Source: Phycisphaerae bacterium
GTDB taxonomy: Bacteria > Planctomycetota > Phycisphaerae > UBA1845
Reading direction: 5' to 3'
NCBI GenBank assembly: GCA_029260115.1
Contig: JAJDDW010000086.1
Span: 1 to 64,000 of the forward strand
Length of the DNA: 64,000 nt
The first letter of the stretch is position 1, and each line of letters opens with the position of its first letter. The notes under the pieces were generated by a model that saw only the letters and a program-made list of their open reading frames with translations, was not told the origin of the DNA and ran no database searches. Shown piece by piece: positions 26,210 through 59,251 of this stretch. Made by a program: the position numbers and the translations under genes.

Positions 26210-26231
26210 GATAGGCGTTAGGAATAATCGC

Positions 26232-32986: not shown

Positions 32987-33078
32987 CATTCTCTCCTTAT
33001 TATTCATAGCCACATGCTCAATACCGTTGAGACCGTAAGTTCTACGGGCCATGCGGCGTCCGTGTACAAAATTCATTC

Positions 33079-37162: not shown

Positions 37163-37174
37163 GTGTTTGTCCAA

Positions 37175-38800
37175 TCATTCGATATAACCCAATGATTTAA
37201 GTCGCATCAGAATCTGTGACTCATCTTCCGTCGAATTAGAGTCGTCCCCTTCTTCGTCGTTCTGTCTCTTCCAATGGTCCGGTGGCACAGACCTGGCACC
37301 AATTACGCATGGCATTTTTGCGAGATGTTCCGTGCGAAATGCTGATCGACAAGAAGAACCCTCCAAGTCGCAGGGGATCTCCACGCCTATCATGCCCAGG
37401 ACTGTCGGCGCTATATCTACCATTTCCAAAGGCTCTAGCTTGGCACCTTTGCGCACGCCCGGCCCGTGGATCACGAATACACCGTTGGGGTGATGGCTCC
37501 CTACGGGGACGGGGCGTCGCATCAATATCTGGCTGCCGCGAAGCACTGAGAAAAAACCGCAATCAGCCAGTTCGACTGTAAGGTCGGGCGATTTTTCAAA
37601 AGCCGGGCCTTCGAAAATCTCCTCGCGCTTCCATACCCGTGAAATGAGTGCCTCACCTGTTTCCGGATCACGGCAATTCGTCATCAGGTCGTCGATGATC
37701 GCATCGCGAAGTCGATGATAATCCGCAGGATCGACCCCATGTGCTGCCCCACGCTTACCAAGAACCGGGATATATATTCCGTTGCTACTCGCCGTGATGG
37801 CGTACGCTTGAGATTGTGTAAGATCGACATGCGAGAGGTGATAGGGTCTCGCTTCGCCCAGCAGTTGCGATTCGGGCGGTTCCAATTTCGCCACCGAAGT
37901 CCAGTGAAGATAGCCGTGCGCCTCCAACCACGTGTTGATATAAAGCACATTCCGTGTCGCGGTGAAACCGTGGTCGGATACGATGAGTACGTGGCCATCC
38001 TCTCCGACAAGGTCGAGCGTCTCGGCCAAGTATTCATCGATTCGGGAGAAATATGCCCAGCAATGATCGCGGGTTTTCAGAAACTCTTTTGAAGGGTTGT
38101 CTGGCTCAAGGGACGGATCCAGAAAATGCCATACAAGGTGTTGTAATTTGTCTACGCCATCAAAGACAATGGCATGGAGATCGCAATGATCATGTTGGAT
38201 TTGGTGGCGAAGGATGGAAAACCACTGCTGCTCGCGCTGAATATGAAGGTCAATCCAAGGCGCATAGTCGGCTAATTCAAGACCTTCTACTGCTTTTCGC
38301 TCCTCGTTAAAATCCATGGCCAACTTTTTGAGATCAAAGCCCTCGATCGAATTCTTGAGCTTGTCAAGTAGCCCTGAGGGGTGAGTCGATCGTTTAATCC
38401 ATCGCCAAGGAACCCAACCAGGAACAACATAACCATCAATGGGTGGCGCCGGATGGTGCGCGACGAAGTTTAAGCATCCCGCGCGCTTGCCAGCGCGAGA
38501 AACCATTGACCAGATGGTCTCGCAGCAAACCTGTTTTGCATCTACCCATCGAACGAATTGAGACTCATCAGACTCGAATTGCACAAAGTTGTGAATGCCA
38601 TGCGCACCGGGTGATCGACCGGTGACCATCGTCGTCCAAGCGGGAGGCGTCAGTGGCGGAATAGTAGATCGCAACGTGGCTCGGGCGCCATGGTCGAGGA
38701 CTTTGCCAAGGGTCGGCATCAAGCCACGCTGGATGAGATCGTCTAGGATATCGTAAGTAGCGCCATCCAATCCGAATAGCACCACAGGTCCGGCAGTCAT
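37175..38800 (-). CDS. Alkaline phosphatase superfamily hydrolase (nucleotide pyrophosphatase-like)
   Basis: This 541-residue protein lacks a signal peptide and belongs to the type I phosphodiesterase/nucleotide pyrophosphatase branch. Motifs are VLFGLDGATYD (metal-ligand Asp), IPPLTPPAWTTMVTG with the nucleophilic Thr, FDGVDKLQH (Asp and His ligands), LIVSDHGFTATRN and a late VGSHHPNGVFVIHGPG. I start at the ATG at 38800, which overlaps the ACP stop by four bases (ATGA); three more codons are possible. Placement directly after an ACP gene in a megasynthase operon suggests it acts on a phosphate ester of the product or on an ACP-linked intermediate. Relatives often sit in polyketide or glycan clusters. 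Confidence 0.87.
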   Translation of the reverse strand: MTAGPVVLFGLDGATYDILDDLIQRGLMPTLGKVLDHGARATLRSTIPPLTPPAWTTMVTGRSPGAHGIHNFVQFESDESQFVRWVDAKQVCCETIWSMVSRAGKRAGCLNFVAHHPAPPIDGYVVPGWVPWRWIKRSTHPSGLLDKLKNSIEGFDLKKLAMDFNEERKAVEGLELADYAPWIDLHIQREQQWFSILRHQIQHDHCDLHAIVFDGVDKLQHLVWHFLDPSLEPDNPSKEFLKTRDHCWAYFSRIDEYLAETLDLVGEDGHVLIVSDHGFTATRNVLYINTWLEAHGYLHWTSVAKLEPPESQLLGEARPYHLSHVDLTQSQAYAITASSNGIYIPVLGKRGAAHGVDPADYHRLRDAIIDDLMTNCRDPETGEALISRVWKREEIFEGPAFEKSPDLTVELADCGFFSVLRGSQILMRRPVPVGSHHPNGVFVIHGPGVRKGAKLEPLEMVDIAPTVLGMIGVEIPCDLEGSSCRSAFRTEHLAKMPCVIGARSVPPDHWKRQNDEEGDDSNSTEDESQILMRLKSLGYIE

Positions 38801-39096
38801 GGCTTGCACTCCTGAGATTTATTAAGGTGGATGACGAGAAAATCCAGGAGATCACCAATTGAGATGTCTTCTGCGTTCCGCTGTCCGGCTTCAGTCAAGA
38901 ACTTAACATATGGAAGCGATTGCTTAAAAGTATCTTCTATAGCTGACCCTAGTGCAACGGCGTCGATCGACTCGAATTCCAAGTCTTTGAATATACCGGT
39001 AGACTCGTCGATTATCTCTGGATATTCCCAGTCTTGTTGAAGTTCTTTGAGAACCTGCATGAGCTGAATTTGGATATCGTTGCGACTAAGGGGCAT
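38797..39096 (-). CDS. Stand-alone acyl carrier protein (megasynthase operon)
   Basis: This 99-residue protein has the ACP helix pattern, with the phosphopantetheine Ser in LEFESIDAVALG (Glu before Ser, where Asp is usual). Its acidic helices and C-terminal FLVIHLN fit. The start ATG at 39096 overlaps the stop of the second synthase gene by 11 bases, and its stop overlaps the next gene by four, so it is tightly coupled to both. It is longer than a housekeeping AcpP by about 20 residues, with an insertion around SLPYVKFLTEAGQRN. It may accept the finished chain from the synthase and present it to the hydrolases. Confidence 0.85.
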   Translation of the reverse strand: MPLSRNDIQIQLMQVLKELQQDWEYPEIIDESTGIFKDLEFESIDAVALGSAIEDTFKQSLPYVKFLTEAGQRNAEDISIGDLLDFLVIHLNKSQECKP

Positions 39097-42000
39097 GAGT
39101 AATTTTTTCCTCCAGCGCGATGCTGTATATGTAACCATTTGTTGACCAAGTCGCGGCGTTTACCATAACCGACTTATTCACTTGCGCTGCTTGCTCGTTG
39201 GATCTTTTGATCTGAACTTGAAAACGCGAAGCCTCATCGACGTTATCAAGACGAACGGCATTTAATTCGCCGAGGAGTGCGAGGCCTATCGCTTTGCCGG
39301 CAGCCTCCTTGGCACTAAAAGCCCGGGTGACCCGCTCCTGTTGGTCGCACCCGTGCATTTGCGAGATGATCCTTTGTTCGGTCTCGTTGAATGCTATAGC
39401 GTCAAAACCCGATGGTCGATCTTTGATGAGTTCTAGGTCGACGCCGATTGCCTGACCACTCGCCGCGCCAATCGCTAGCCCTTTCTTGTGGCTAATGGAA
39501 ATGTGTACAGGTGTGTCCAATTGTGAAGCCCAAGAGCCGATAGCGCTCGGCCTTCCTTGTTTATCGTGGACAATGCACACATCCGCAGGAAAAACCTTCC
39601 AACCTATCTGATTTTGGATATATGCCCGAACGGCATCTTTAACCGCTGTGCGTGCACATAGCCACTCTTCACGACGTGATGCGCTCTCGATGGACCAAAA
39701 CTCATCAAGCTCAACTTGGCTACAAATCAGATGTGCCCAAAGCACTTGCCAGAACTTATTCTCCAGCTCGCCCTTCCATTCCATTTGATACACGACCCCA
39801 TCGAAATCTGGGATTGGACTCGAAGGCTGTACTTTCCTACTCGCAAAGAATTCTTTGGGAAAACGCCAGAAGTTATAGTGAGTACGCGGCCAATAGAATC
39901 GCCTATCTTGCCAGCCGTCGATGCGCATCCAAACTTCGCCTGATGGCGTGGTGACCTCCATGTCCGCTTGAATTTGGCGATACGATACATCCTTAACTTT
40001 TAATGCCGTACGGAGGCACACTTCCGGCTTGGGATGTGGACCGTACAAGCAGATAGACTCGATGGCGACTGGAAAGACAACAAACCCTTCGTTGAGAAAT
40101 TCGACCGGCCAATATCCTACTAGCTGTCCGATTGAATCGAGTAGAAAGGGATCCAGAATGAATCCGGAATCCGTGGTAGCGGCTTTGTTGCATGCCGCTG
40201 GTGAACATCGTACCGTCGCGATCAAACCGTTCTGTCCGATTTCGTCTAGCGACGTTACGCGCTGAAAGGTATGTCCGTGGAACATGTGCTTTTGCGCGTA
40301 CATTTGCTTCGCCGTCATCTTTGGCTGTACGGCGTCACTTAGCGAGATTGCCGTCGGCTTCGGTGCTGCCGCCCAATCTTTTCCCAATATCATCTGTGCG
40401 TGGGCTACGGTTTGAATTTGAATTTCTGAGTCAGCTTGGTTTTGTTCAATACGAAGAATTTTCGTGTGAACCACGTTGCTCGATTCCGTTGTTGTTTCAG
40501 CTTCGATGAGTACTGATACTTCTGGCCGTTTACCGGATAGTTCAAGCCATGAATCGGCCCGAAGGTGTTTGATTTCGACGATTCGTAGATTTGGGTTCAA
40601 TAGGCTCGCTGCTTCGGCCATCAACTCTACGCTAACGGTCAACGGCACGACGTGTAGATGAGAACGATGGGGATCGTCCGCAGAAACGTCTACGTCAAAG
40701 GCGTGGTCCACGAGGTATGCATCGTTTTCGAGAGAAATATTTTGACGAATGACGATACGTTTACCTGCGACGAACTCAACCAGCTCACCATGCAGCATGG
40801 GAAGACGATCAAGGTTTGGTACCGGCTTTTCCTCGGTTACCAGCGGTGCTTCCGTAGACAACTGCACTGCCAAAATTTCACTCTGCGTATCGACGATTTG
40901 TTCCATGAGGCGCATATGATCCGTGACGGCTTGGAATCGGGAATCGGCCGCAACCGGTGCCTGTTTGGCCCGTTCAGCATCTTTCGCTAGCGATGGACTT
41001 ACATTTCTCGCGAATGGCTCGGACTCTTTCGGCAGGCTTGAGGCGTTGGGTTTAACTTCTGCGTGTTTGGGAGGCAACGCAAAATCCTGACCTATATGTA
41101 ATCGTGGATAGCATATGGAGACGGACATCGCCCCGGGACGATCCATCTCGTTGCGGATTGAATCCTCTTCAGCATCAAAAGAAAGCTGCTTGGGTTGCCG
41201 CCGTTCGTAGAGATAGGACAGGTCCATCCCGACCCCGATGGCTGCGAGGGCTGCCAACGCGTGGTGAAGCGCCGTAACCCCCGTGCGTCGAGATTGATCG
41301 ACAGCTACCGCAAGGTGTGGGCGTCCGCGTAGTGTGTCCGAAATAAAACCGATCAGGTTTCCCTTCGGCCCAATTTCTAGAAATGATCGCACGCCATCGT
41401 CATAAAGCGATTGGATCGTCTCAGTGAAACGCAGTGGTTGGACGAATGTATTCGCAAGAATGTCGAGAATATCGGCGGTATTCGAGGGATAATGCGCTGC
41501 CGTCGTGCTGTTGTAGACCGGTACGGTAGGCGATCGAAAAGTGAGTGACGAAAAATAGGTATTCAGTGGTTCGCGCATGCACGTGAACGCCGGCGTGTGG
41601 TACCCTCGATCGTATGGCAAGCGTTCAGTCAAGATACCGGCTGTTCGCATGAGGTCTTGAAACTTTTCTGCATGGTCTGGTTCAGTGACGACAACGATTT
41701 GATGGGGGCAGTTATCGTTTGCTATGTCAGCATTGAGAGCATGATCCATTAGCAGGGTTTCCACGCGTTGCCGACTTGCGCCTACTGCAAACATGACGAC
41801 ACGGCGCATGTTCCCATGGCTCGATACCCCGCGATAAGCGGCCTCTAGTCGTGGCATGCTCTCAATAAAATCGGAGAGTGAAACCATACCTGATGCGACC
41901 AATCCGATCCAATCACCGCCGCTGTGTCCGGCTATGACATCGGGCGTTATCCCTAGTTTTTGAATTAGTTGATATAATGCTAGGTCCGCCGTCATCACGG

Positions 42001-44047
42001 TTTCGGTCGCTCGCTCGATGCTCCACAAGGCTTTCTCAGCAGATTCTTGTTCCGCCTCACTACGACCTGTCGCGGGGAAGACCACGGATGACATCGGTGC
42101 GCGTCCAGTTTCGTGGACCGCATGGTCAGCCATTTCGAAACATTCACGTACGATAGGAAAATGGATACATAGATCCCTGAGCATATTGAGATATTGGCTG
42201 CCTTCGCCTGGGAAAACAAACGCAAGTTTTCCGCCGCAGACTTCCGCATCCTCAGAGTAATAGATGCCTGATCGATCTTTGATGTTCGTACATTGACCAC
42301 CACCAAGACGCTCCAGTGCCCGGGCTACTTTGGACGACAAATCCTCAAGCGTGAGTGCGACAATCCCTAACCTATAGGCCTTATCCGATAGTCTGGCATG
42401 TAGCGAGTACGCGATGTCTTTTAATTCGACACCGTGAAGATTATTAAGATATACACCAAGCGCTTTGAGCACGCCCACCATGTCCTGTCGTGAATCCGCT
42501 TCCAATATGCATACTTCCGAGTCCCATCGATGAATGTAGGATATTCGATCTGATTGGCTTGTGGTTGTGGGCGTAGTTTGCAGTGCGATCGGACCTATAG
42601 CCATCGGGGCTTCTTCTAGTACAACATGGGCATTGACGCCGCCAAAACCAAACGCGCTCACGCCCGCGCGGCGCGGTACAGCTGCAGTTTGACGGAACCA
42701 CGGGCGTTTCTCTGTGCTCATGTAAAATCTACTGGATGAATTTGAAACAGCTTCAACCGGCTGTTCGCAGTGTAGCGTCGGAGGCAACACACGGTGGTAT
42801 ATTGCAAGGGCGGTCTTAATTAAAGATGCAATACCAGCGGCGGGCATCGTGTGGCCGATCATTGATTTGACGCTGCCCAACGCACAATCCCTCAGCTCGC
42901 CTAGCTCTCGGTGTCCGAGGACGCGGTGTAGTGCGTCAATTTCGGCGGCATCGCCGACCGGAGTGCCGGTACCGTGACCTTCAATCAAACTGATTGTTCG
43001 GGGATCCACATGGCTCATCTCATAGGCTCGGCGCAGTGCAAGTTCCTCCCCCTCAATGCGTGGCGCGGTGATGCTCGTCGCGCGACCATCGCTACTTGTC
43101 CCCACGCCGCGAATGATGGCGTATATGCGATCACCATGTCGTTGGGCGTCTTCCAGTCTTTTAAGGACCATGATCCCGCACCCCTCGCCTGCTAGTGTGC
43201 CGTCACTACGCTCATCAAACGGGCGAATGGTGGAGCTTCTGGATAACGCACCCATTCTTGCAAATACTTGTAAGAAGGGAAAATCGGAGAATATATGCAC
43301 ACCACCTGTGAGTGCGATATCGTATTGGTGAGAAAGAAGTCCGCGCATGGCATTTTCTGTGGCGATCAGGGAAGAAGCACAGGCTGCGTCTACGGTGTAC
43401 GTCGCTTCCATGAAATCCAACCGATTCGCTACCCGCCCTGTTGTAATATTAGGAATTAATCCAGGTGCGGTGTCTGGTGCGAAGGGTGGCAGCTCACGTC
43501 GGAGTTCGTCTTTGATCGATTGGAGTTGGTCTGCGGTATATTCAGGATGAAGCTTTTTCAGGATACCCAACGTTTGTTCAGTGATAACACCGCGCATCAG
43601 AAGCGACGTCGCGCCAGCACCCAGGTAGCTACCGCGACCGAGGATGAGCGACCCACGTTTGTTACCGATATCCCGCATGTCGAAGCCGGCATCGGCGATC
43701 GCCTCATACGCCGTGCGCAACACGAGAAATTGATCCGGTTCTGCGCCAGGGATGGCGCTGGGCATCGCGCCGTAGCGTACTGGCTCGAATGCAAATGAAG
43801 TACCGAGAAATCCGCCGCGCTTACAATACACCCGATCATCGAGATGGGGATCGTCACTGAAGAATACATCTGGATCCCATCGCTGCGGATCCACGTTATG
43901 TACACAGTCTTTTCCATCGACGATATTCTGCCAGTATTCTTGTACGTTTCTAGCTTGCGGGAAGGTGCAAGCCATTCCCACAATAGCAATTGAATTTGCA
44001 TCTGGTTGAGATGCGTCATTGTTGGAATGTATGTGTACGCCACTCAC
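39086..44047 (-). CDS. Polyketide/PUFA-type synthase: KS-AT-DH-PPTase
   Basis: This protein of about 1653 residues has four recognisable domains. The ketosynthase (residues 20-490) shows Cys in DAACASSL, His in EGHGTGTPVGD and His in GHTMPAAG. The acyltransferase (about 600-900) shows FVFPGEGSQ and GHSGGDW. A dehydratase-like double hotdog (about 1080-1400) shows YLVDHAFD and MFHGHTFQRV. The last 170 residues are a Sfp-type phosphopantetheinyl transferase, with IGVDLELI and FSAKEAAGKAIG. No ACP or KR is present, so it must work with the larger partner. Translation starts at a GTG (44047) overlapping the partner's stop (GTGA). A built-in PPTase lets the system activate its own carrier domains. 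The layout recalls PfaC plus PfaE of PUFA synthases. Confidence 0.92.
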   Translation of the reverse strand: MSGVHIHSNNDASQPDANSIAIVGMACTFPQARNVQEYWQNIVDGKDCVHNVDPQRWDPDVFFSDDPHLDDRVYCKRGGFLGTSFAFEPVRYGAMPSAIPGAEPDQFLVLRTAYEAIADAGFDMRDIGNKRGSLILGRGSYLGAGATSLLMRGVITEQTLGILKKLHPEYTADQLQSIKDELRRELPPFAPDTAPGLIPNITTGRVANRLDFMEATYTVDAACASSLIATENAMRGLLSHQYDIALTGGVHIFSDFPFLQVFARMGALSRSSTIRPFDERSDGTLAGEGCGIMVLKRLEDAQRHGDRIYAIIRGVGTSSDGRATSITAPRIEGEELALRRAYEMSHVDPRTISLIEGHGTGTPVGDAAEIDALHRVLGHRELGELRDCALGSVKSMIGHTMPAAGIASLIKTALAIYHRVLPPTLHCEQPVEAVSNSSSRFYMSTEKRPWFRQTAAVPRRAGVSAFGFGGVNAHVVLEEAPMAIGPIALQTTPTTTSQSDRISYIHRWDSEVCILEADSRQDMVGVLKALGVYLNNLHGVELKDIAYSLHARLSDKAYRLGIVALTLEDLSSKVARALERLGGGQCTNIKDRSGIYYSEDAEVCGGKLAFVFPGEGSQYLNMLRDLCIHFPIVRECFEMADHAVHETGRAPMSSVVFPATGRSEAEQESAEKALWSIERATETVMTADLALYQLIQKLGITPDVIAGHSGGDWIGLVASGMVSLSDFIESMPRLEAAYRGVSSHGNMRRVVMFAVGASRQRVETLLMDHALNADIANDNCPHQIVVVTEPDHAEKFQDLMRTAGILTERLPYDRGYHTPAFTCMREPLNTYFSSLTFRSPTVPVYNSTTAAHYPSNTADILDILANTFVQPLRFTETIQSLYDDGVRSFLEIGPKGNLIGFISDTLRGRPHLAVAVDQSRRTGVTALHHALAALAAIGVGMDLSYLYERRQPKQLSFDAEEDSIRNEMDRPGAMSVSICYPRLHIGQDFALPPKHAEVKPNASSLPKESEPFARNVSPSLAKDAERAKQAPVAADSRFQAVTDHMRLMEQIVDTQSEILAVQLSTEAPLVTEEKPVPNLDRLPMLHGELVEFVAGKRIVIRQNISLENDAYLVDHAFDVDVSADDPHRSHLHVVPLTVSVELMAEAASLLNPNLRIVEIKHLRADSWLELSGKRPEVSVLIEAETTTESSNVVHTKILRIEQNQADSEIQIQTVAHAQMILGKDWAAAPKPTAISLSDAVQPKMTAKQMYAQKHMFHGHTFQRVTSLDEIGQNGLIATVRCSPAACNKAATTDSGFILDPFLLDSIGQLVGYWPVEFLNEGFVVFPVAIESICLYGPHPKPEVCLRTALKVKDVSYRQIQADMEVTTPSGEVWMRIDGWQDRRFYWPRTHYNFWRFPKEFFASRKVQPSSPIPDFDGVVYQMEWKGELENKFWQVLWAHLICSQVELDEFWSIESASRREEWLCARTAVKDAVRAYIQNQIGWKVFPADVCIVHDKQGRPSAIGSWASQLDTPVHISISHKKGLAIGAASGQAIGVDLELIKDRPSGFDAIAFNETEQRIISQMHGCDQQERVTRAFSAKEAAGKAIGLALLGELNAVRLDNVDEASRFQVQIKRSNEQAAQVNKSVMVNAATWSTNGYIYSIALEEKITHAP

Positions 44048-47000
44048 GCCGATTCCGCCTGCGTCAAATTTTTCTGCCGACCTAGCCGATTTAGCGCCTT
44101 GCTGCACGTAGCCATCATTCCTTCGAGCTTGGCGACGCACGCCATCTGATCATTGAAGAAACTAAGGTCACAGGCCAGCGTCGGACTTCCCTCTTTATAC
44201 TTGATGCGAACTTCGCATCGCACGTGATCCTGGGGCATTTTTTGGAGTCGGCGATAGGCATGCAGATGAGAGGGAAGCGGCGTCACGCCAAGCACTTCCT
44301 TTGCCCAAAGGATAATTAATTGTAAACCACTGTCGATGACAACCGGATCCACCAACCATGATCCCGTACTCGCATTGGCCAACAACTGAGAGGGTCGGGA
44401 ACATCGCAATATGCCGGAAATGCCGTTTTCGCCGACCGCAATAACTTGTTCAACACCGGATAGCATGGGGCCATGAAACAGCCAATCCCGCTTGGCTTGA
44501 TCTAGCGAAAGGTGCAATTCACGTGCAGACTTCAGTTCTTCCGGCGCGGAGGGGAGAGGCATAGCCTCATAGTTTAGTCGGGCTTGGGCAGTATAGCGAA
44601 GTTGTCTTTCGTCGTCGCAGCGTAACCCAATAGAAAACGTGCGGTCATTAGTGTCGTTTCCTTGGGCCTCCGAATAAACGTGGAGTAGGCAACTATCCTG
44701 TTTTAGCTTGATGCCGCGCAGAATTTTTAGATTTTCGATGGTCAGGTATTGAAAATTAGGCGCTTGAACCGACACCGTATCCGCAAATAGCTCAAGTACC
44801 ATAGCCATGGGCATGACACGCACACCATCCATGACATGATCGTCGAGATATACATCTTGCCGGGCGTCGAGCGTACGCTCGATCTCGATGGAATCGGCGT
44901 CTAAGCTCACAAGGCGGGTCAACCCCGTTTGCAGAAGCGGACCCGCCACTGTTGCGTCAATGCGGGAGGAAGACAAATTGTTGTCCGTCATATGTTGCAT
45001 AGAGTCGGGCGTGGATAATAGTGACCCCAGAATGATTTCGCCATCCACGCACGAGTCGCACTGTAATTCCTCGATGAATGCCTTACAGCCACTGTCCGTG
45101 GAAATCATCTGGATGCCGGCTGATGCGAATTGATTGGCGAGAGCATCTGAGACCATCCCCTCGCCCGAACCCCAAGGGCCCCAATTCAACGCCGCGATGC
45201 GCCCAGGCCAACGTTGATTGAGTGTGCTGGCAAGCTTATTGAGCACTTCGTTGGCCCCAGCATAGTCCGCTTGGCCCTGATTTCCGAATCGCGCCGCAAC
45301 GGATGAGAACAAGAAAAAGAATTTTAGCTCTTGAGGTCGAAGATGATTAACCAGTGAGAATGCTACCCGCACTTTGGCATCGAACACCCGTAAAAAGGAC
45401 GCTTCGTCTTTATCTTCAACAATCTTATCCTCAATGATCCCAGCCGCGTGAATCACACCGTCAATCCGGCCCAATCTTGAATAGACGTCGACGATTAATC
45501 CATGCAGCGCGTCGTCGTTCGTAGCGTCTACACTGTGATACTCCGCCGTACCTCCGTTCGCGCGTATTGAATCTATAGTTTGACGAATTTCACGCTCAGC
45601 TATCAGAGTGCGATATGCTTTTTCCACCTCGCGCACAGAGGCTCGGTCTGAATCGTTCTTAAGTTGCTCACGGATCGCTGTTTTGAGGCGCTTAATATTA
45701 GTCAGCCCCACAGTCGATGGTGATTCAGCAGTTGAAGGAGATGCAGACCTTCCGACGAGCACGAATGTTCCGCTACGCTCGCGCGAAAGCCGTTCGAGGA
45801 TTTTAGCGGTAATGCCCCTTGCGCCCCCGATAACTAAGATGACGTCGTTATTAGCGTGTTCATGCTCGGTAGCGCTGGTGGGCAGTGCTTCTGGAACGAG
45901 GTCGAGCTCCATGCGCCGACCCCCGATATAAGCGATTTCTAGTTTCGAATCACAAGAAATGAATTCCTTCGCGATCAACGCGCCGACGGCACTTTGATCC
46001 TGCGATTCGTCTACGTCTACAACACGAACATCCACGTTGGGCCATTCCCGGGCTACGGACTTGGCCATCCCGCAAATCGCGGCGTGCGGAAGTCGCAACG
46101 TGTTTTCGTCTTTATAACACGCAATGCCGAACGCAGCGCCTATTCGCGTAACGATACAAATGCGTGCATCAGTTACTTCAGTTGTAACGCGCCGGAACGC
46201 TTTCAGCGTCCGTAAAAATCGAAGGCTAGATGCCGCGCAGGCATCATAGGTTATTGAATCAAGACACTGATCAGCATGGCTCGTGGGTGTTAGGTAGATA
46301 AGGTGTCTAATCCGATTCAACTCGTTGGCATGGGCTTGTAAGTCGAAATCAGGGCCTATGGCCGCCTGCCGAATTATGCATATGCCTGGCGAAGAATCCA
46401 AAAGTAGGTTGTCTTGTTCTGCAAGAATAATTGGGGTCGCCCCAAAAGCGATCAACTCTCGCGCGACGTTAATTGATAAGCCCGAACCATCGTCAATAAT
46501 TAAAATGGATCCTTCAATCTTCGCCATCGGTGCGGAGGACAACTCAGTCTCACGTGGTCTTATTACTAGCCTGGGTACAGGTTGCGCTTGGTTCAATGCG
46601 CGATCGTCATTGCCATGTAAATCTTCGATTCGCGTGGGATGGGACTCTGGAGCCTTGGCTGATGTGACCGCTCGATTTTCTTGTTTTAGAGCGTTCATCC
46701 ATTCTCGTAGGGTCCGTCGCTGCGTGAGCGCCTCCATGTCGAGACCCAAGGCGTCAATTTGTTCAGGGTGCAACTCCCGCAAGGCACCGACGATCTCTAC
46801 ACGTTTGATCGAATCGATACCTAGGTCAGCCTCCAAATCTAGGTCCAATTCTAGCATGTCTGACGGGTAGCCCGTGCGATCCGCGACGATCTGTATTAGT
46901 TGATCGAACAATTCGTCACCGTCATTGGATGCGTGGGAATCACTGGTTGTGGATGCGGTATGAAATTCTTCGAGGTGCTCGGAACCAGATACAGGGGTCT

Positions 47001-50000
47001 TAGTCGATGTACTCGACCCATTACTTTGATGTAAAGCGCTCATCCATTCACGCAGCGTTCGACGCTGCGTGAGCGATTCCATATCGAGACCCAAGGCATC
47101 GATTTGTTCAGGGTGCAACTCTCGTAAGGCCCCGACAATTTCCACACGTTTGATCGAATCAATACCCAGGTCAGCTTCCAAATCCAGGTCCAATTCTAGC
47201 ATGTCCGACGGATAGCCCGTACGATCCGCGACGATCTGAATCAGTTGATCGAACAATTCGGTATCGCTATCGGATGATGTTGAAGTTTCAGCGATGGACG
47301 TCTCAACCGTATCACGTTGTACGAATACGATTTCACTTTTTAGTTCGCTTATCGTAGAGGAATCTAGGTGTGGTGAGGTCGATACACCATTGTGGCCTAA
47401 TGCACTTGGTGGAGGTTGGCCATTATCGTTTGACTCTGAATAAGGATGGTTCGACGCAACTGTGGCTTCACTCACTGATTCTGCCTCACCTGTAGTGTCC
47501 GATGGCGCTTGCGCTATGCCTGTGAGATAGCGGAGCATCACTTCTCGCTGCGTATCTACGATTTTGGACATTAATTTATGGTGAGCTGCGATGAGCGCAT
47601 CGTGTTGCGCAGCGGACTTCAGCGGTTGAGGAGTCGGTCCCGTGTCCAAGTTAGATTTACGATTCGATTGACGAGAATTCTGGTTTGCTCCTGAAAGTGT
47701 TCCGTCGGTGATGATTTTTCTGCTCTTTTCCGCAATTCGCAAATTATTCTGCGATTCGTCCGTTGTGATGCGTTTATTGATCGACGTTGCAGGGGGCTCG
47801 GTGTTGGATACATTGTTGCGCGCAACGCTTGTTGGCGCGTCATGCATTACACTGGCTGGCTTTGATTCTTGATGCGCGGGCACCGAGCGATCCGCACCGA
47901 CTATCCAAGTTGTTCGCGACGGTTGACGTCGGGGCAGCGCTGCGAGCAATTCGTCGAAACTCAGCCACTGCTTGACCCGTCCTTGAAAAAGTAGGGAAAA
48001 AGTGATATTCACGCCTTGAGTCACGATGCGACAGAGGAAGTCGCATAGTTGCTCTAAGCCGTGGCGACCCGCACGGTCCAATGCGAACGCGCAGTGTGGT
48101 CGGTCGGCGAAAATCTTGCCTAATAATCCAGTGAGCACACCTGAAGGACCAACCTCGACAAAAAGTCGTGCACCCGCGTCGTACATTCGCTGAACCTCGT
48201 CAACGAACTGCACCGGCGCGACGATTTGTTCTGTTAGCGTGTCCTGAAGTGTGCTTGGGTTTGACGAATGTTCACGCGCGGTCGTGTTTGAGTATACGGG
48301 GAACTGTAGCGGTTTCCAAGCTACGTCGCTTAGCACTTTGCGGAAGGGTTCTTGTGCCGAGGCGACAAGGCCCGAATGAAACGCGCATGAAACGCGCAAA
48401 CGTTGCGATGAAAAGTTAAGCCCATTCAGCAATTCGCTGGCTAGCTGAAGGGATTCATTTTTCCCGGAAACGACAACCTGTTTGGGGGCGTTAATGTTTG
48501 CGATCCAAAGATCGGGAATTGACCCAATAGCGGTTTGTACATTCTCAATGCTCGCAGCCACGGCAAGCATGCTGCCTTCGTTATCGCATCCGGCCTTTGC
48601 GATAAGGCGACCTCGCGCTTCTGACACCTGCATCAACTCTTCGAACGACATCGCTCCCGCGGCGCACAATGCGGCGTATTCTCCATAGCTATGACCGCAG
48701 GCCATGGACGCGTCGATGCCCAGTTCTCGAAGCAATTCCGTTAGGGCTATCTCCACTACGCCGAGGGCTGGTTGTGCCACACGCGTGTCCTTCAGTGCAT
48801 TTTCCTTCAGGGACAGATGTTCGGGCGTGATAGCGGGCGTAGGAAAAATTATCCGAGAAAGAGGCAGGCCGAGTCGATCTGATAGCAAGCGGTCGGCCCG
48901 TTCGAAAAAACTGCGCACTTTGGGAAACGCTTGTGCAAGATCACGAAGCATACCTAATCGCTGCGATCCCTGTCCGGGATAGACAAAAGCGATCGATTGA
49001 GGCCCCCATGTCGATTCGCTTGAGAAATAGATGCCCCGATTTTCCTTAGATAACGTGTTGCCGGTTGTCAGCCCATCCAGCGATTCTCGAATTTTCTTTT
49101 TTAGTTCAGAAACGGAACTGGCGGTGAATGATAGACGATGCGATCCAGGACGATCTCCGAATTCCCGACAAACGGTAGCCGCAATTTCTCGCAGTGGAAA
49201 GTCTGCAGGATCTGTGAGCGCTTCTAGAAGCTTGTGCAGTGGTGTTTGTAATGCTTCGGCGTTTTTGCCGCAGAGGACGAAAAGTTCACATGGCCAAACG
49301 TCTAGCCCTTGGGCAGAACGACCGCCGCGCGTGTTGTCGTCGGTTTCCTCCATGACGATGTGGAAATTAGTGCCACCAAAACCGAAAGCACTGACCCCCG
49401 CGCGCCGTGGTTTTCCATGCACGTCTGCGAACCATGGACGTGATTCTTTGCTGACAAAAAATGGATTGCCGTCCTGTACGAGTGCGGGGTTAAGCTTTTC
49501 GACCCCCAGGGTAGGTGGAAGCGTCTTGTGATAAAGTGCAAGGGCCGTTTTCATCAGCCCGGCAGCGCCCGCTGTACATTTGGTGTGTCCGATCATGCTT
49601 TTGACGGAACCCAACGCACACGACTCCTTGCTAGCACCATGACGTAGAAATACCTTGCTCAAAGATTCGATCTCACTACGGTCGCCGGCCGCGGTTCCGG
49701 TGCCATGCGCTTCAATAAGCCCGACGGTTGTGGTAGAAAACTGTGCCTTATCATAGGCACGCTCTAGTGCACGCATCTGCCCCTCAGGTCGTGGTGCAGT
49801 CAGCCCCTTGTCTCGTCCGTCACTAGATGCCCCCGCACCTTTGATTACGGCATAGACGCGATCTCCATCACGGCGCGCGTCAGCGAGTCGTTTTAGAATG
49901 AGAATCGCAATCCCTTCCGAGATGACAATGCCATCGCCCGATGCGTCAAACGGTCGGCAGCGTCCGGATGGGGACAGTGCCTGCGTCTTACTGAAACACA

Positions 50001-52746
50001 GGTATGTAAACGGGTTAAGCATGGTGTCTGCGCCGCCGGTGATGACTAAGTCGCTCGCACCCGATTGAAGTTCATCCAGCGAGAGCTTTATGGCGGCGAG
50101 CGATGAAGCGCATGCGGCGTCTACTGTGTAATTGGCACCGCCGGTGTCGAAACGGTTTGCAGCTCGCCCTGCTATGACGTTAAGCAAAAGACCGGCGAAC
50201 GAATCTTCCGTCCATTCTGGCAATTCGTCACCCAAGGCGCGGATCAATTGCGCCTGCTGCGCCTTTGGGATATCGGTCCGCTCTAAATACATAGGTAACA
50301 TGGATCGAAAGCTATAACCGATCCCAACATTGGCAATGCCACCACCCGCGCCGAGAATGATTGAGGTCCGCTCATGGTTTTCGCTTGGAGTATTGTGGCC
50401 AGCATCATCCAGCGCCTTTCCCACACAATCCAGGACGAGCAACTGCATCGGTTCGATCGACGACAGCGTGTTTGGCGGCATGCCGTATTTCATAGGATCG
50501 AATAAAATTGAATCGATAAAACCACCCCAGCGTGAGTAGACCTTGTCGCGTTGATGCCGATTTTTATCGAAATATAAATTTACATCCCAACGGTCGGGGG
50601 GGATTTCTTGGATGGCGTCGAATCCGCTGACGATATTGCGCCAATAGGTCGAGAGGTCAGATGCGCCAGGAAGCTGGCAAGACATACCCACAATAGCTAC
50701 GTCATAAGGTTGCTGCGCGGGCACCTCGCGAGGGGATTGAATGTGTACATCTTTTAGCCGCGAACTCTCACGGGATATTTGCTCGTGCAACTCGCGCATG
50801 CTGCAGGTACCAGTACGCAGACTGGCTAATTGGCCGATCATGTACATCCCTTGTGATCGCTGCTGTGCATCGGGGACCGATTCCACGTGTTCGCCGGACA
50901 CATCACGCTGAATGCCCTTGGAAGCGATGCGTAGCCTTCCCAAATTGAGCGTCTCTAATTCCTGGTTGAGTTCGTCAGGCGATACGCCACGCGCTAATAG
51001 TGATCGTCGTTGATTTTCGAAGAATGCGGCGAAAGACGTCTTGGCACATCGTGAGGCGTGTCCGACACCCGTTTTCAATAGCACCGTTTCTGAACAGGCT
51101 ACCGCTTCGTCTTGAAAGCCTTGTTGAATGGCACCACTTTCCACGGCTTCATGCGTGAATAGATACGCGGTTCCCAGTAGAACGCCTATGCGCACGCCGC
51201 GTTCAACGAGCTGTGCACCAAGTGCTGCAACGATTGAAGCGGATGTTTCATCATGAATCCCACCCGCGAACAAAATGTGGTACGACACGCCGCTTGCGCC
51301 AGTTTGGTCGAGATGTTCGAGTAGCACATTGATCATAGTTTCCCAAAGAATGAAACTAGACCTTGGCCCGACATGTCCCCCGCATTCGCGTCCCTCGAAG
51401 ATGAAGTGCGTGGCATTCTCAGATAAAAACATTTTTAGCAGACCGGGTGATGGGACGTGTAGATACGTCGTGATACCTTCCTGCTCCAAAGTGCGCGATT
51501 GAGCAGGTTGTCCGCCAGCGATGATCGCAAATCGCGGTTTGCACTCCCGCACAGCGAACAACTGTTCCTCTCGCAGCGCCTTGGGTACGAACCCCAGTAT
51601 GCCAACGCCCCATGGGCGGTCGCCTAATGCATCCCGTGTATTTCGAAGCAACTTTGTTACATCCGGTCCGCGTAATAATGCGAGGGCGAGAAAAGGCAAT
51701 GCGCCAGCTTCGGCTACGGCGTTAGCGAAGGCCGGAGTGTCACTCACACGTGTCATCGGTCCCTGTACGATCGGATACTGCGTACCATGAGCTTGGGCGA
51801 GTGGCGATTGTTCACTCATGGCACGTTGCTGCGAAGCTAACGTTCGCCCTGTCAATGCGGATTGCTGTATCGCCTTACAGATGTCACCGACAGTTTTGAA
51901 TTTTTTGTTTAGTGGTGCGGCAAAACATGCGTCTTGTCCAACCGCGATAATTCTTTTATCCGACGATCGTTCTCTGATTGCCGAGTGAAGTTGATGCAAC
52001 GTGAGGTCACGATTTTCGCCTAGTTCCCAAGCCTCTAACCTGGATAGCCATGTATCATTCGGATGTTGTCGAAGCCGCCATCTGCCAAGATTCTCCAACT
52101 CGAACACGCGTGTCTCGCTACCATCCATACGCATGACGAAATCACGGATGTCTCGAGGTAATACTGATTCGGCGGTGAGCGCAAGTTGCCAATCTATGAG
52201 CACACCTGTAGCACCCGCTACGAAACATGCCGCCGCAGAATGCAGCCCAATACCCCCACGAACCCATACCGGACACGTGGCTCGCTGCAGGGCCGCTTGC
52301 AAAAGGATGAACGATGTCTCTTCACCCACATGGCCACCGGATTCGTTTCCCCTAACTACAACCGCGTCAGGGTGTAATGCAAGACGCTCATCGAGTGCCA
52401 AAATAGATGTGCATTCCACTATTACATGCAAACCAAAGCCGCGTAGCCGATCTATAGTTTCGGCCAAGTGAGACATTGCAGGATAGCACAACACAACCGA
52501 TTTGACTTTGCCTTGCGCCGCCGCATCACCGAGTGCTCGCATGACGGAATCTGATAGTTCCCCAAGCGTGATGGTGTCAACGCCATCGTGATGAATAAGA
52601 TTTTGAATAATAGTAGTGACTGCGTCGGGTGCGTGGTACTCGAGTGCTAGCCCTCCGGCATGCCCGTTGCGCATAGCTGCGTAGGCAATCGAGGGTGAGA
52701 CAAATCCAGGCGGATTTAAAGCTAGTACTTGAAGCCCAAACGACAT
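44044..52746 (-). CDS. Polyketide/PUFA-type synthase: ER-ER-KS-AT-ACP-ACP-KR-DH
   Basis: This 2900-residue megasynthase opens with two tandem nitropropane-dioxygenase-like FMN barrels (about residues 1-240 and 310-620, each with a GGHVG motif), the PfaD-type enoyl reductase. A ketosynthase follows (from about 681; DAACASSL, EAHGTGTAAGD, GHTKCTAGAAG), then an acyltransferase (from about 1250; FVYPGQGSQ, GHSYGEYAAL). After a Ser/Thr-rich linker come two nearly identical ACPs (1830 and 1945; LGIDSIKRVEIV), a ketoreductase (about 2300; VIGGARGIT, FLFSSVAARFGNQGQADYAG) and a dehydratase (about 2633; YLDDHVMDG). It starts at the ATG at 52746 with AAAGG eight bases upstream. In known PUFA synthases the ER is a separate protein; here it is fused N-terminally. 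Product unknown. Confidence 0.93.
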   Translation of the reverse strand: MSFGLQVLALNPPGFVSPSIAYAAMRNGHAGGLALEYHAPDAVTTIIQNLIHHDGVDTITLGELSDSVMRALGDAAAQGKVKSVVLCYPAMSHLAETIDRLRGFGLHVIVECTSILALDERLALHPDAVVVRGNESGGHVGEETSFILLQAALQRATCPVWVRGGIGLHSAAACFVAGATGVLIDWQLALTAESVLPRDIRDFVMRMDGSETRVFELENLGRWRLRQHPNDTWLSRLEAWELGENRDLTLHQLHSAIRERSSDKRIIAVGQDACFAAPLNKKFKTVGDICKAIQQSALTGRTLASQQRAMSEQSPLAQAHGTQYPIVQGPMTRVSDTPAFANAVAEAGALPFLALALLRGPDVTKLLRNTRDALGDRPWGVGILGFVPKALREEQLFAVRECKPRFAIIAGGQPAQSRTLEQEGITTYLHVPSPGLLKMFLSENATHFIFEGRECGGHVGPRSSFILWETMINVLLEHLDQTGASGVSYHILFAGGIHDETSASIVAALGAQLVERGVRIGVLLGTAYLFTHEAVESGAIQQGFQDEAVACSETVLLKTGVGHASRCAKTSFAAFFENQRRSLLARGVSPDELNQELETLNLGRLRIASKGIQRDVSGEHVESVPDAQQRSQGMYMIGQLASLRTGTCSMRELHEQISRESSRLKDVHIQSPREVPAQQPYDVAIVGMSCQLPGASDLSTYWRNIVSGFDAIQEIPPDRWDVNLYFDKNRHQRDKVYSRWGGFIDSILFDPMKYGMPPNTLSSIEPMQLLVLDCVGKALDDAGHNTPSENHERTSIILGAGGGIANVGIGYSFRSMLPMYLERTDIPKAQQAQLIRALGDELPEWTEDSFAGLLLNVIAGRAANRFDTGGANYTVDAACASSLAAIKLSLDELQSGASDLVITGGADTMLNPFTYLCFSKTQALSPSGRCRPFDASGDGIVISEGIAILILKRLADARRDGDRVYAVIKGAGASSDGRDKGLTAPRPEGQMRALERAYDKAQFSTTTVGLIEAHGTGTAAGDRSEIESLSKVFLRHGASKESCALGSVKSMIGHTKCTAGAAGLMKTALALYHKTLPPTLGVEKLNPALVQDGNPFFVSKESRPWFADVHGKPRRAGVSAFGFGGTNFHIVMEETDDNTRGGRSAQGLDVWPCELFVLCGKNAEALQTPLHKLLEALTDPADFPLREIAATVCREFGDRPGSHRLSFTASSVSELKKKIRESLDGLTTGNTLSKENRGIYFSSESTWGPQSIAFVYPGQGSQRLGMLRDLAQAFPKVRSFFERADRLLSDRLGLPLSRIIFPTPAITPEHLSLKENALKDTRVAQPALGVVEIALTELLRELGIDASMACGHSYGEYAALCAAGAMSFEELMQVSEARGRLIAKAGCDNEGSMLAVAASIENVQTAIGSIPDLWIANINAPKQVVVSGKNESLQLASELLNGLNFSSQRLRVSCAFHSGLVASAQEPFRKVLSDVAWKPLQFPVYSNTTAREHSSNPSTLQDTLTEQIVAPVQFVDEVQRMYDAGARLFVEVGPSGVLTGLLGKIFADRPHCAFALDRAGRHGLEQLCDFLCRIVTQGVNITFSLLFQGRVKQWLSFDELLAALPRRQPSRTTWIVGADRSVPAHQESKPASVMHDAPTSVARNNVSNTEPPATSINKRITTDESQNNLRIAEKSRKIITDGTLSGANQNSRQSNRKSNLDTGPTPQPLKSAAQHDALIAAHHKLMSKIVDTQREVMLRYLTGIAQAPSDTTGEAESVSEATVASNHPYSESNDNGQPPPSALGHNGVSTSPHLDSSTISELKSEIVFVQRDTVETSIAETSTSSDSDTELFDQLIQIVADRTGYPSDMLELDLDLEADLGIDSIKRVEIVGALRELHPEQIDALGLDMESLTQRRTLREWMSALHQSNGSSTSTKTPVSGSEHLEEFHTASTTSDSHASNDGDELFDQLIQIVADRTGYPSDMLELDLDLEADLGIDSIKRVEIVGALRELHPEQIDALGLDMEALTQRRTLREWMNALKQENRAVTSAKAPESHPTRIEDLHGNDDRALNQAQPVPRLVIRPRETELSSAPMAKIEGSILIIDDGSGLSINVARELIAFGATPIILAEQDNLLLDSSPGICIIRQAAIGPDFDLQAHANELNRIRHLIYLTPTSHADQCLDSITYDACAASSLRFLRTLKAFRRVTTEVTDARICIVTRIGAAFGIACYKDENTLRLPHAAICGMAKSVAREWPNVDVRVVDVDESQDQSAVGALIAKEFISCDSKLEIAYIGGRRMELDLVPEALPTSATEHEHANNDVILVIGGARGITAKILERLSRERSGTFVLVGRSASPSTAESPSTVGLTNIKRLKTAIREQLKNDSDRASVREVEKAYRTLIAEREIRQTIDSIRANGGTAEYHSVDATNDDALHGLIVDVYSRLGRIDGVIHAAGIIEDKIVEDKDEASFLRVFDAKVRVAFSLVNHLRPQELKFFFLFSSVAARFGNQGQADYAGANEVLNKLASTLNQRWPGRIAALNWGPWGSGEGMVSDALANQFASAGIQMISTDSGCKAFIEELQCDSCVDGEIILGSLLSTPDSMQHMTDNNLSSSRIDATVAGPLLQTGLTRLVSLDADSIEIERTLDARQDVYLDDHVMDGVRVMPMAMVLELFADTVSVQAPNFQYLTIENLKILRGIKLKQDSCLLHVYSEAQGNDTNDRTFSIGLRCDDERQLRYTAQARLNYEAMPLPSAPEELKSARELHLSLDQAKRDWLFHGPMLSGVEQVIAVGENGISGILRCSRPSQLLANASTGSWLVDPVVIDSGLQLIILWAKEVLGVTPLPSHLHAYRRLQKMPQDHVRCEVRIKYKEGSPTLACDLSFFNDQMACVAKLEGMMATCSKALNRLGRQKNLTQAESA
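46691..46914 (-). repeat. ACP module repeat, downstream copy
   Basis: This is the second of two ACP-coding repeats inside the large synthase gene (unit length 345 bases, 115 codons). Compared with the other copy over 224 bases I count about 26 substitutions, nearly all silent; the peptides differ at two positions. Confidence 0.85.
47036..47259 (-). repeat. ACP module repeat, upstream copy
   Basis: This is the first of the two ACP-coding repeats. The phosphopantetheine Ser is in LGIDSIKR. The linker between the copies (about 40 codons) is Ser/Thr-rich. Confidence 0.85.
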
Positions 52747-52888: not shown

Positions 52889-55204
52889 TCAATCCGCGGT
52901 AGGCATGCGCACTACAGCAGGATTCACCCCGAATCGTCTACGAAACACAAACAACGGAGACACACAGAACAGCCAACCGATGATGCCGACAGCGCCGCAC
53001 GGCGCGCTGCCTGGAAGCGTACGCTGCGCGATGGGGTCCGGTTCAAACACCGCCCGGACCGTCATGTCTTGGTTCATGACGATCATTACGGCGAGGTTGT
53101 CGCCGTCGGCATCTATCTCCCAACCCACAAATCGTGAGCCGATGCCCGGCGTGGCCACTAGCAGCACCTCTTTCCCTGGTTCGAACGAACCTTGTGACGG
53201 TGTGACAATTCCGTCGTTGACAACCACAGTCGTCAATTTTAGTAAATTGGAATCCCCAACTGCCATACCCGCTTCCGGCTCACCTTCCGACGGCCGGCCC
53301 GAATTCACGAACTTGGCTTCAAGCTGGTTAGTTTCCTCTAGGACGAGCTGAATAATAGGCTCCTTCGAGTCCACAGCACCATGCCAACTATCAAACCTAT
53401 TCCCTGCACCAGGAATGGCAGTAAATGTTACTTGTTCGCCGAGTGCGAAATTAGCCATATCGGGATCCGAAGAAACTTCTCCGTTTCCGATGATGGTGAG
53501 ATCAAATTGAACTTCAATACCGAATCGTGCGGCTATCGTACGATCACGGTCCATCATTAGAGAAAGTGGGTTAGTTTGGCTATGTCCTGCAGGAACGTTG
53601 CCTGTCCATCCAAGGAACACTGCCCCGTCATCCGCTTGGGCAGCAACAGACACTACAGTTCTATTGACATACCTCGAAACCAGTTCATTCTCGACAAACG
53701 ATCCAGTCGGCGAAGGAACTAATGTGCCCGTTCCATTCCCAGTTACGCCTATGTTTAGTGTACGTAATAAGGGACGAAAAACTGGGCTAATCGTCCTTGA
53801 TCGTGACATATCTACCACGATCGGGTTCTCTGTAGGCAACTGTATCAAATCAGTCAGCGAGCCAAGGTCGCCCAGGTCCGGAAGCTGGTCTAGAAACAGG
53901 GGCGCATCTGATAACCATCCATCCAGTTGATAACCTGATAAAGGATGAGCCGTAAGCGTCACTATTTGTCCTAGCGGATAGATCTTACGAATTGACGATC
54001 CAGGAACTATTCCTGTTTGGATGGGCGACGTGGTTACGGTTCCGCCCTCTAAACCGCTTGATATGGAGAGCACAGGATCCAGTATCAACTGGACAACTTG
54101 TGTCCCGATGGGAACCGGTACCAGGTTGGACATATTGAAAAATGTGACCGTGGCTACATGCGCGCCTGCGCTAAGTTGGTTGGCTGCGACGTTGGGACGA
54201 AGTTGTAATATTTGACTGTCATGTCCATCAACGTCACCTGCAGGAGCGAGCGCTCCTGCTTGATGCGAGAGGGAAATCCAATCCGAGTCGCTGGTCGCAC
54301 TCCAAAACACCTGGCCGTCGCTATCATTCTCAACCTTGATGCTGTGAGAACCAAAATTGTTGAGAAACCCGGCAGCATGGTGCAGCGTGATGTCTTGGTC
54401 CGGTGTGAGTCTAGGTGACCCACTACCGTGCGGTCGCACGATCATTGTGATGGGAATTTGCGTTGTACCTGCGCCGTTAGTTGTGTTCTCGACGAACACA
54501 TTCGCAGTGTATGTACCTGGTGAAAGCCCAAACGGGTCGACCTGAACCTCGAATGAGTCCGATCCACCACTGGGTACCGTGCCCTGCGTTTTGTTGAGGG
54601 TAAACCAAGACTTGGATAGCCAAGTTAGCCGATAGTTTAGATCGACATTCCCGATAGAAGCCAGGCTCACAGTGGCGGAAGCCGGTTGGGCTACGAATGA
54701 TTCGAACGCGCTGAACTGGACGAATGCCGGAGTGATCTCAAATCGTGCGGGAGCGATAGTCAGCTCAACATCGCGCGTCGTGTTGCCCGAGCCATCGCCA
54801 AGGTTTACGAACGAAACCGTGCCCAAGTATTGACCAGATGCCATATGTCTGGCAACAAGTCCATCGATTTTGGCGTTGACCGCTCGCGTATCGAATCGCA
54901 GATGGTGGATGATCGTCGCACCCGGCGTTGTGAACAGCCAGGGTTGGTTCAGGTTGACTGTAAAGTCCAGTCCGATAGTATCGCTATCTGCAACTGTCCA
55001 CTCCGTTTCTGTCTCTGCTACAATGGGGCCTCCTTCGAATCCGGAAAAACGAACCGGCGTAGCGCCCGACGGTGAAACCGAAAGTGTTTGTCCCTTCGAG
55101 ATCGACGTATTCGATAATAATATTAACAACGATAGACAAACGAACGATCTGGACGCACTATATTGTCTACGGCCATCGTAGCACGTTGTTGCATAAGATA
55201 ACAT
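52889..55204 (-). CDS. Exported protein with InlB-type beta repeats and Cys-Gly tail
   Basis: The 771-residue protein has a signal peptide (SFVCLSLLILLSNTSISKGQ). Residues about 40-375 are BACON/ASPM-like beta sandwiches that repeat phrases such as GQYLGTVSFVNLGDG, GTYTANVFVENTTNG and GAHVATVTFFN. Residues about 380-740 hold four divergent InlB B-repeat-like units, each with a turn, a hydrophobic strand and a closing Trp (GYQLDGWLSD, VFLGWTGN, NRFDSWHG, SRFVGWEID). The tail is PGSAPCGAVGII, a hydrophobic helix and RRRFG, like two other proteins here. Start ATG at 55204 follows GAGGGGGG. It is probably surface-exposed and adhesive. It lies 142 bases upstream of the megasynthase. Confidence 0.8.
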   Translation of the reverse strand: MLSYATTCYDGRRQYSASRSFVCLSLLILLSNTSISKGQTLSVSPSGATPVRFSGFEGGPIVAETETEWTVADSDTIGLDFTVNLNQPWLFTTPGATIIHHLRFDTRAVNAKIDGLVARHMASGQYLGTVSFVNLGDGSGNTTRDVELTIAPARFEITPAFVQFSAFESFVAQPASATVSLASIGNVDLNYRLTWLSKSWFTLNKTQGTVPSGGSDSFEVQVDPFGLSPGTYTANVFVENTTNGAGTTQIPITMIVRPHGSGSPRLTPDQDITLHHAAGFLNNFGSHSIKVENDSDGQVFWSATSDSDWISLSHQAGALAPAGDVDGHDSQILQLRPNVAANQLSAGAHVATVTFFNMSNLVPVPIGTQVVQLILDPVLSISSGLEGGTVTTSPIQTGIVPGSSIRKIYPLGQIVTLTAHPLSGYQLDGWLSDAPLFLDQLPDLGDLGSLTDLIQLPTENPIVVDMSRSRTISPVFRPLLRTLNIGVTGNGTGTLVPSPTGSFVENELVSRYVNRTVVSVAAQADDGAVFLGWTGNVPAGHSQTNPLSLMMDRDRTIAARFGIEVQFDLTIIGNGEVSSDPDMANFALGEQVTFTAIPGAGNRFDSWHGAVDSKEPIIQLVLEETNQLEAKFVNSGRPSEGEPEAGMAVGDSNLLKLTTVVVNDGIVTPSQGSFEPGKEVLLVATPGIGSRFVGWEIDADGDNLAVMIVMNQDMTVRAVFEPDPIAQRTLPGSAPCGAVGIIGWLFCVSPLFVFRRRFGVNPAVVRMPTAD

Positions 55205-56597: not shown

Positions 56598-56613
56598 AGC
56601 ATACAATTCCAAA

Positions 56614-57333: not shown

Positions 57334-57811
57334 CAAAAAAGTCCCGTGGTAGTGCATAGCGGTACGCATACTCACATCTATAGTGGCATTTCCAAGCCCA
57401 TTATCGGACATTCTCGCGATTTTATTTGTTGTGACGCAGTAGGTTGATTCTGTTGCCAGTTGCCTCTAAAAGCAAGTAACCAATCTACTCTTCGCAAGCT
57501 GCCCCGCAAACCAAGCATTGCTGCTATTCATACGCTCACATCCTGCTAGGCCCAGGCGGGATGATAACGATAATGGCAATGAAAAGCAAGTCGAATTGTG
57601 GGATTGGAGCCTTTTTTATAGTTGTTGAATGATCTAGAGCAGAGAGCCATAGGGCTGTAATGAGTGCAGTTCGACCCTGTTGAATAAGTACCCGATGATA
57701 AGTGAGAAAACAGCAATCGATAGGCACGTAGCGTCGTTTGATGTTTGTTATTATTACGAAACAGATTCCACGGAGGGCGTCTATTCTACTAAATGTCATC
57801 CAAAGCAGGCA

Positions 57812-59179: not shown

Positions 59180-59251
59180 ATGGAGTGGACGAGCGTTAGA
59201 ATCGTTGATCAACGCACTAACTTTCGGCATTTGAGGGGAGGGAGTACGCGT

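Follow-up and report, generated by a model that had tools for sequence, protein, structure and literature searches.

The window, that is, the whole 64,000-nucleotide stretch analysed, carries on its reverse strand two adjoining genes for large multidomain proteins, which the original prediction described as a two-polypeptide PUFA-like synthase with the enoyl reductase (ER) fused to the front. The chain 1 gene starts with an ATG at 52746, with a ribosome site upstream, and stops at 44046-44044. The chain 2 gene has a GTG start at 44047, in an exact GTGA overlap with the chain 1 stop, in agreement with the coupling proposed for the pair. Pfam matches recovered the predicted domain order of both chains, including a ketosynthase (KS) and an acyltransferase (AT) on each: NMO (FabK-like ER) in two stretches, KS, AT, PP-binding twice, KR and a PKS-type dehydratase (DH) in chain 1, and KS, AT, PS-DH and ACPS (PPTase) in chain 2, where the DH is present and KR and ER are absent. 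As had been proposed, chain 2 thus has its own PPTase. TIGR02813, the NCBIfam PfaA subfamily, was the top family for both chains, with 1210 bits against a cut-off of 1010 for chain 1. Horizontal gain was considered from base composition and set aside: the G+C content of the genes (0.51-0.53) equals that of the window (0.51) and, therefore, gives no signal of such a gain. The chains and their domains are located as follows.

44044..52746, (-), chain 1, ER1-ER2-KS1-AT1-ACP1-ACP2-KR-DH1, 2900 aa
51817..52746, (-), ER1, degenerate FabK-like TIM barrel, GGH kept in the window copy
50767..51807, (-), ER2, FabK-like TIM barrel, ECGGHVG motif
49501..50703, (-), KS1, Cys-His-His intact (Pfam, motifs, tree)
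48127..48987, (-), AT1, malonyl-binding Gln/Arg pair present (Pfam, alignment)
47062..47262, (-), acyl carrier domain ACP1 (LGIDSIK), boundaries approximate
46702..46905, (-), ACP2, near-identical to ACP1 (Pfam)
45169..45840, (-), KR (Pfam)
44101..44913, (-), DH1, PKS-type double hotdog, HxxxGxxxxP and DxxxQ intact
39086..44047, (-), chain 2, KS2-AT2-DH2-PPTase
42764..43996, (-), KS2, Cys-His-His intact (Pfam, motifs, tree)
41324..42220, (-), AT2, Ser-His dyad kept, malonyl Gln/Arg pair lost (Pfam, alignment)
39803..40783, (-), DH2, PKS-type, His and Asp retained, HxxxGxxxxP without its Gly
39209..39760, (-), PPTase, GVDLE and FSAKEAAGK motifs intact

The near-identity of ACP1 and ACP2 (47262-46702) suggests a recent duplication or homogenisation.

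Ketosynthase phylogeny and distribution

KS1 and KS2 both carry the motifs DAACASSL, HGTGT and GSVKSMIGH. Given its intact Cys-His-His, KS2 is not a CLF, and no CLF (second KS-like domain) was detected in chain 1 or chain 2, which confirms an absence already remarked upon in the original prediction. In a tree of 87 KS domains, a quick tree with some long branches whose deep order should not be over-read, the KS1 domains of front-ER chains (29 rows; support 99, starred) and the KS2 domains of their partner chains (24 rows; 98, starred) each formed a clade, and the PfaA KS domains (13 rows; 99, starred) formed a third that neighbours both. Type P rows (Beijerinckia/Methylosinus) fall inside the KS1 clade. 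These three clades, together with the long-branch enediyne KS, lie apart from the KS of modular PKSs and of PfaC, so that in this quick tree both KS domains of the window are placed outside the modular clade, in the Pfa/secondary-lipid branch to which they had been assigned.

Sequence matches of KS2-AT2 in the PDB were mostly to modular PKSs, as would be expected of an ordinary modular type I PKS that is only Pfa-like in look, but this probably reflects the scarcity of Pfa KS domains in that database. With both KS set apart from modular KS at starred support, TIGR02813 as the best family for each chain, and tandem ACPs and front FabK-type ERs, which are not modular features, such a PKS is extremely improbable.

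The distances among KS1 and among KS2 domains were strongly correlated over 21 loci (Mantel r 0.85, p 0.0001), at least as strongly as those of two domains of the same chain, ER2 and KS1 (r 0.73), indicating that the two chains have been inherited together. Front-ER homologues were found at 34 loci in a single genome scan, with record labels covering Chloroflexota, Acidobacteriota, Planctomycetota, Actinomycetota, Pseudomonadota, Verrucomicrobiota, Poribacteria, Cyanobacteriota and others. Counting also plasmid-borne copies, the class seems to be common in many phyla. On one plasmid (B. indica pBIND02), the Beijerinckia front-ER synthase adjoins type III PKS genes. Closer to the window, eight other genomes of its family and order had a match of about 50% identity over ER-ER or the following KS-AT, and two genomes of its own genus had no match to either region. 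By 16S, the host showed about 76% identity to each of Planctomycetota, Actinomycetota and Poribacteria. The second chain occurs in several forms among the loci: KS-AT-(ACP)-DH-PPTase, KS-AT alone, AT-DH-PPTase and DH-PPTase. Among anammox planctomycetes, front-ER synthases are present in Brocadia and Loosdrechtia (L047, L062), and in Loosdrechtia two phosphodiesterase homologues lie near the synthase. Homologues are also carried by the cultured Smaragdicoccus niigatensis and Actinomadura hibisca, which makes the question of the product accessible to bench work.

Catalytic signatures of the two chains

An ER fold was expected within the first 620 residues of chain 1, and the structure model of residues 1-669 indeed contains two TIM barrels (pLDDT 84, pTM 0.89). 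The closest solved fold to this modelled region was FabK (5gvh; TM 0.84 by target, E 6.7e-17), with PfaD far lower in the same search (E about 4e-8). Profile comparison pointed the same way: ER1 and ER2 matched FabK at 45 and 72 bits, respectively, and neither matched PfaD, while a control PfaD scored 656 bits to TIGR02814 (PfaD family) and 16 bits to FabK. Fold and profile, therefore, rule out a fused PfaD at the front of chain 1, and the expectation of a PfaD-type reductase gives way to a FabK-like pair. The catalytic-motif His was present in 47 of 47 ER2 rows and in only 1 of 42 ER1 rows, that of the window, being lost in the other 41. TIM-barrel ERs need to dimerise (PMC13311796), so the ER1-ER2 tandem is best read as an intrachain dimer in which ER2 would be the working half. 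Going by its retained catalytic His, the ER1 of the window may be active here.

The two AT domains differ at the malonyl-binding residues. In counts that take in comparison Pfa and modular ATs, the Gln was found in 74 of 74 AT1 rows and 0 of 30 AT2 rows, and the Arg in 73 of 74 and 0 of 30, respectively. AT1 is accordingly a putative malonyl loader. Bacterial PfaB, which lacks the Gln/Arg pair, transfers long acyl chains rather than malonyl (PMC12895367), and the likeness of AT2 to it in this respect makes malonyl loading by the AT2 of the window unlikely. AT2 keeps a GHSxG motif, whereas bacterial PfaB has GYSxG, and its substrate may, therefore, differ from that of PfaB.

Neither chain contains a FabA-type DH/isomerase in Pfam searches, which detected two in each of two control PfaC proteins. 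The term PUFA-like, taken as a hint of the product, consequently finds no counterpart in the dehydratases: a PUFA would be an unlikely product and a saturated long acyl chain the likeliest one, with unsaturation by DH1, DH2 or another enzyme still possible. DH2 is the sole DH found in the Beijerinckia Type P pair, which argues that the DH2-type form is functional.

These signatures bear on the possibility that the locus encodes a true, rearranged PUFA synthase, with chain 1 corresponding to PfaD and PfaA and chain 2 to PfaB, the DH of PfaC and PfaE. Chain 1 does exceed the PfaA subfamily cut-off, the PfaA KS clade neighbours KS1 and KS2, and AT2 resembles PfaB in having no Gln/Arg pair. However, a PUFA synthase without a FabA-type DH/isomerase or a CLF, and with a FabK-like front ER in place of PfaD, appears quite unlikely.

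The discrete acyl carrier protein and neighbouring genes

The extent originally given to the system, 39086-52746, holds for the two synthase genes. Its end at 39086 does not, as a discrete ACP gene and further overlapping genes continue to 27569.

38797..39096, (-), discrete acyl carrier protein (GIFKDLEFESIDAVAL), 99 aa, own ribosome site
37175..38800, (-), AlkP-superfamily type I phosphodiesterase, ATGA overlap with the ACP gene, conserved neighbour
36275..37174, (-), alpha/beta hydrolase, conserved neighbour
34230..36278, (-), secreted protein, 682 aa, TSP3 repeats, VCGAIGG-TM tail at the C terminus
33079..34233, (-), alpha/beta hydrolase-like protein, 4-base overlap
27569..33082, (-), 1837-aa MopE/DUF7467 protein, last gene of the overlapping string
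52889..55204, (-), secreted BACON/InlB-repeat protein, 771 aa, PCGAVG-TM-RRR tail at the C terminus
55383..56612, (-), GH43_C2/DUF1349 protein, 409 aa, PCGIG-TM-R tail at the C terminus, conserved neighbour
56614..57411, (-), 265-aa GH43_C2/DUF1349 protein, conserved neighbour

Chain 1 and chain 2 are followed by the genes for the ACP, the phosphodiesterase, the first hydrolase, the 682-aa TSP3 protein, the second hydrolase and the 1837-aa protein, and the junctions along this series, with overlaps of 4-11 bases or no gap, make a single operon likely. The start of the discrete ACP gene lies within the end of the chain 2 gene, in an 11-base overlap. By profile, a discrete ACP was detected at 17 loci, every one of them with AT2; in 12 of these it immediately follows chain 2, and in the other five it lies at another place in the cluster. 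In these five, L052, L054, L055, L056 and L070 (Competibacteraceae and related), the discrete ACP is upstream of chain 1 on the opposite strand, and the loci share further genes and a short KS-AT second chain. The profile search found no discrete ACP at two Type P loci, both of which lack AT2; as the two are related, the joint absence may represent one event. AT2 loci without a discrete ACP say little, since they end within or soon after chain 2; at L050, none was found in the 0.3 kb beyond chain 2 or the 5.5 kb before chain 1. The in-chain ACP of chain 2 has been lost in the window and is kept in its nearest relatives. The simplest reading is that AT2 would hand its acyl chain over to the discrete ACP.

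A different division of labour is conceivable, in which the acyl chain is made by chain 1 and then lengthened through KS2 by one or a few units, left unreduced or reduced only in part, so that a beta-keto, hydroxy or enoyl head would replace the head group made by a type III PKS. In favour of this, KS2 has a complete active site and diverged from KS1 before the family spread, chain 2 contains a DH but neither KR nor ER, and type III PKS genes occur in those Type P clusters where KS2-AT2 is missing. On the other hand, AT2 is an unlikely malonyl loader, which would leave AT1 as the source of extender units; the chain 2 of the window no longer has the in-chain ACP retained in its near relatives; and some relatives without KS2 retain AT2-DH2-PPTase. 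We regard this two-step lipid-polyketide synthase as a doubtful alternative that still merits consideration. A phenolic lipid was rejected as the product of the window: no type III PKS was detected in the cluster, and the profile search of the window's genome (94% complete) yielded as its sole hit a FabH-like protein.

Several neighbours recur beside the synthase in related genera, namely BACON-type and GH43_C2 proteins upstream, and the phosphodiesterase, hydrolase and TSP3 protein downstream. The 771-aa BACON/InlB-repeat protein is directly upstream of chain 1 in five relatives, homologues of the 682-aa TSP3 protein (whose structure model is of low confidence, pLDDT 57) adjoin the synthase in relatives, and homologues of the 1837-aa protein lie near it in L040 and L041. 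The alpha/beta hydrolase at 36275..37174 might have a thioesterase-like role. The three secreted flanking proteins (682, 771 and 409 aa) share a C-terminal tail consisting of a Cys-Gly motif (CGxxG-like), a TM stretch and mostly basic residues. No NCBIfam model matched this tail, which resembles MYXO-CTERM (PMC11980579). It is not private to the synthase cluster: the C termini of at least six more proteins encoded elsewhere in the genome carry it, which indicates a general tag in the genome of the window. The invariant Cys of MYXO-CTERM is considered a lipidation site whose enzyme is unknown. An envelope role for the lipid is plausible.

Two other features of the window were recorded. A PapA5-like acyltransferase and a FabH-like ketoacyl synthase III, at 24830-27472 (+), are convergent with the synthase operon; the pair was not seen conserved beside the synthase in relatives, and it might use acyl chains from the synthase. 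A 999-aa beta-propeller protein at 59180-62176 (+) matched the hydrazine synthase beta subunit profile at 74 bits, far below the cut-off, probably through a shared propeller fold only.

Proposed synthase and its relation to known systems

We propose, with a probability of roughly 0.6, that the gene pair encodes an iterative type I secondary-lipid synthase of the front-ER class, kin of ArsA/ArsD (Type P) and of the fused pfaDA/pfaBC-PPTase systems, in which chain 1 elongates and chain 2 finishes. Chain 1 holds a complete elongation set, that is, KS1, a malonyl-type AT1, two ACPs, KR, DH1 and ER2 with the degenerate ER1. AT1 would load malonyl units, and KS1, KR, DH and ER would cycle on ACP1 and ACP2 to build a saturated long acyl chain, with the two TIM barrels paired in one chain and reduction falling to ER2. 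The PPTase would activate all carriers. KS2 would act late, although it could instead work in every cycle, and AT2 would transfer the long acyl chain onto the discrete ACP. The final lipid might then be made from it by the operon hydrolases and phosphodiesterase or by an unlinked enzyme. No known product was found for the KS2-bearing members compared, nor outside the phenolic-lipid branch. As a much more speculative extension, and a very unlikely one, KS2-AT2 and the discrete ACP might be an interchangeable finishing module, whose place is taken by type III PKS genes in producers of phenolic lipids, with the acyl chain in the window's lineage dedicated to surface proteins, where the synthase could supply the lipid for the Cys of the MYXO-CTERM-like tails. 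Three points lend themselves to bench testing: the FabK-type front reductase with its mostly dead twin, an AT2 that is not a malonyl loader, and the discrete ACP as a recurrent third part.

We did not find the FabK affinity, the degenerate ER1, the AT2 signature or the discrete ACP stated in the related literature, though they may have been published. The layout itself is not new. The original prediction held the ER to be separate in all known Pfa systems, but fused pfaDA with pfaBC-PPTase has been described in Aquimarina (TRL1), Flavobacterium (N502540) and Renibacterium, while Ottowia has a pfaDA fusion that lacks KS-CLF (PMC13291983). The Type P pair has likewise been published. The product of the Renibacterium fused cluster is uncharacterised, and the cluster was placed in Type M by Shulse and Allen (PMC13291983; PMC3098273). 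Compared by published description only, these fused systems and the window share an ER on the PfaA part and a PPTase ending the PfaBC part; unlike them, the window has no linked NRPS. It also shows the arrangement that characterises the broad Pfa-like secondary-lipid class of Shulse and Allen, a PfaA-type KS with AT, ACP and KR on one chain.

Relative to PfaA-PfaE (Types A and B), the window shares the PfaA-type KS-AT-ACPn-KR core and a second AT without the Gln/Arg pair, and differs in having no KS-CLF didomain, no FabA-type DH/isomerase, and a FabK-like ER pair instead of PfaD. The heterocyst glycolipid synthase (Type F, Hgl) is likewise Pfa-related and makes an envelope lipid, and Type F has no DH/I domains (PMC3098273); it differs, by published description only, in its KS-CLF-AT and separate parts.

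In Type P (Azotobacter, Beijerinckia), the long acyl chains go, in Azotobacter, to type III PKSs (PMC3098273; PMC4824345; PMC6274091), ArsA making C23-C25 chains that are passed to ArsB/ArsC (PMC4824345). The comparison was made with Beijerinckia, where the first chain is ER-ER-KS-AT-ACP-ACP-KR, which is also the order in the window, its KS1 nests in the same clade as that of the window, and the second chain is DH-PPTase, two domains that chain 2 of the window also carries. In Type P, type III PKS genes separate the two chains, and KS2-AT2, DH1 and the discrete ACP are lacking, whereas the window shows the reverse. The fused two-chain layout is, therefore, that of a known and widespread class, of which the window is a further member.
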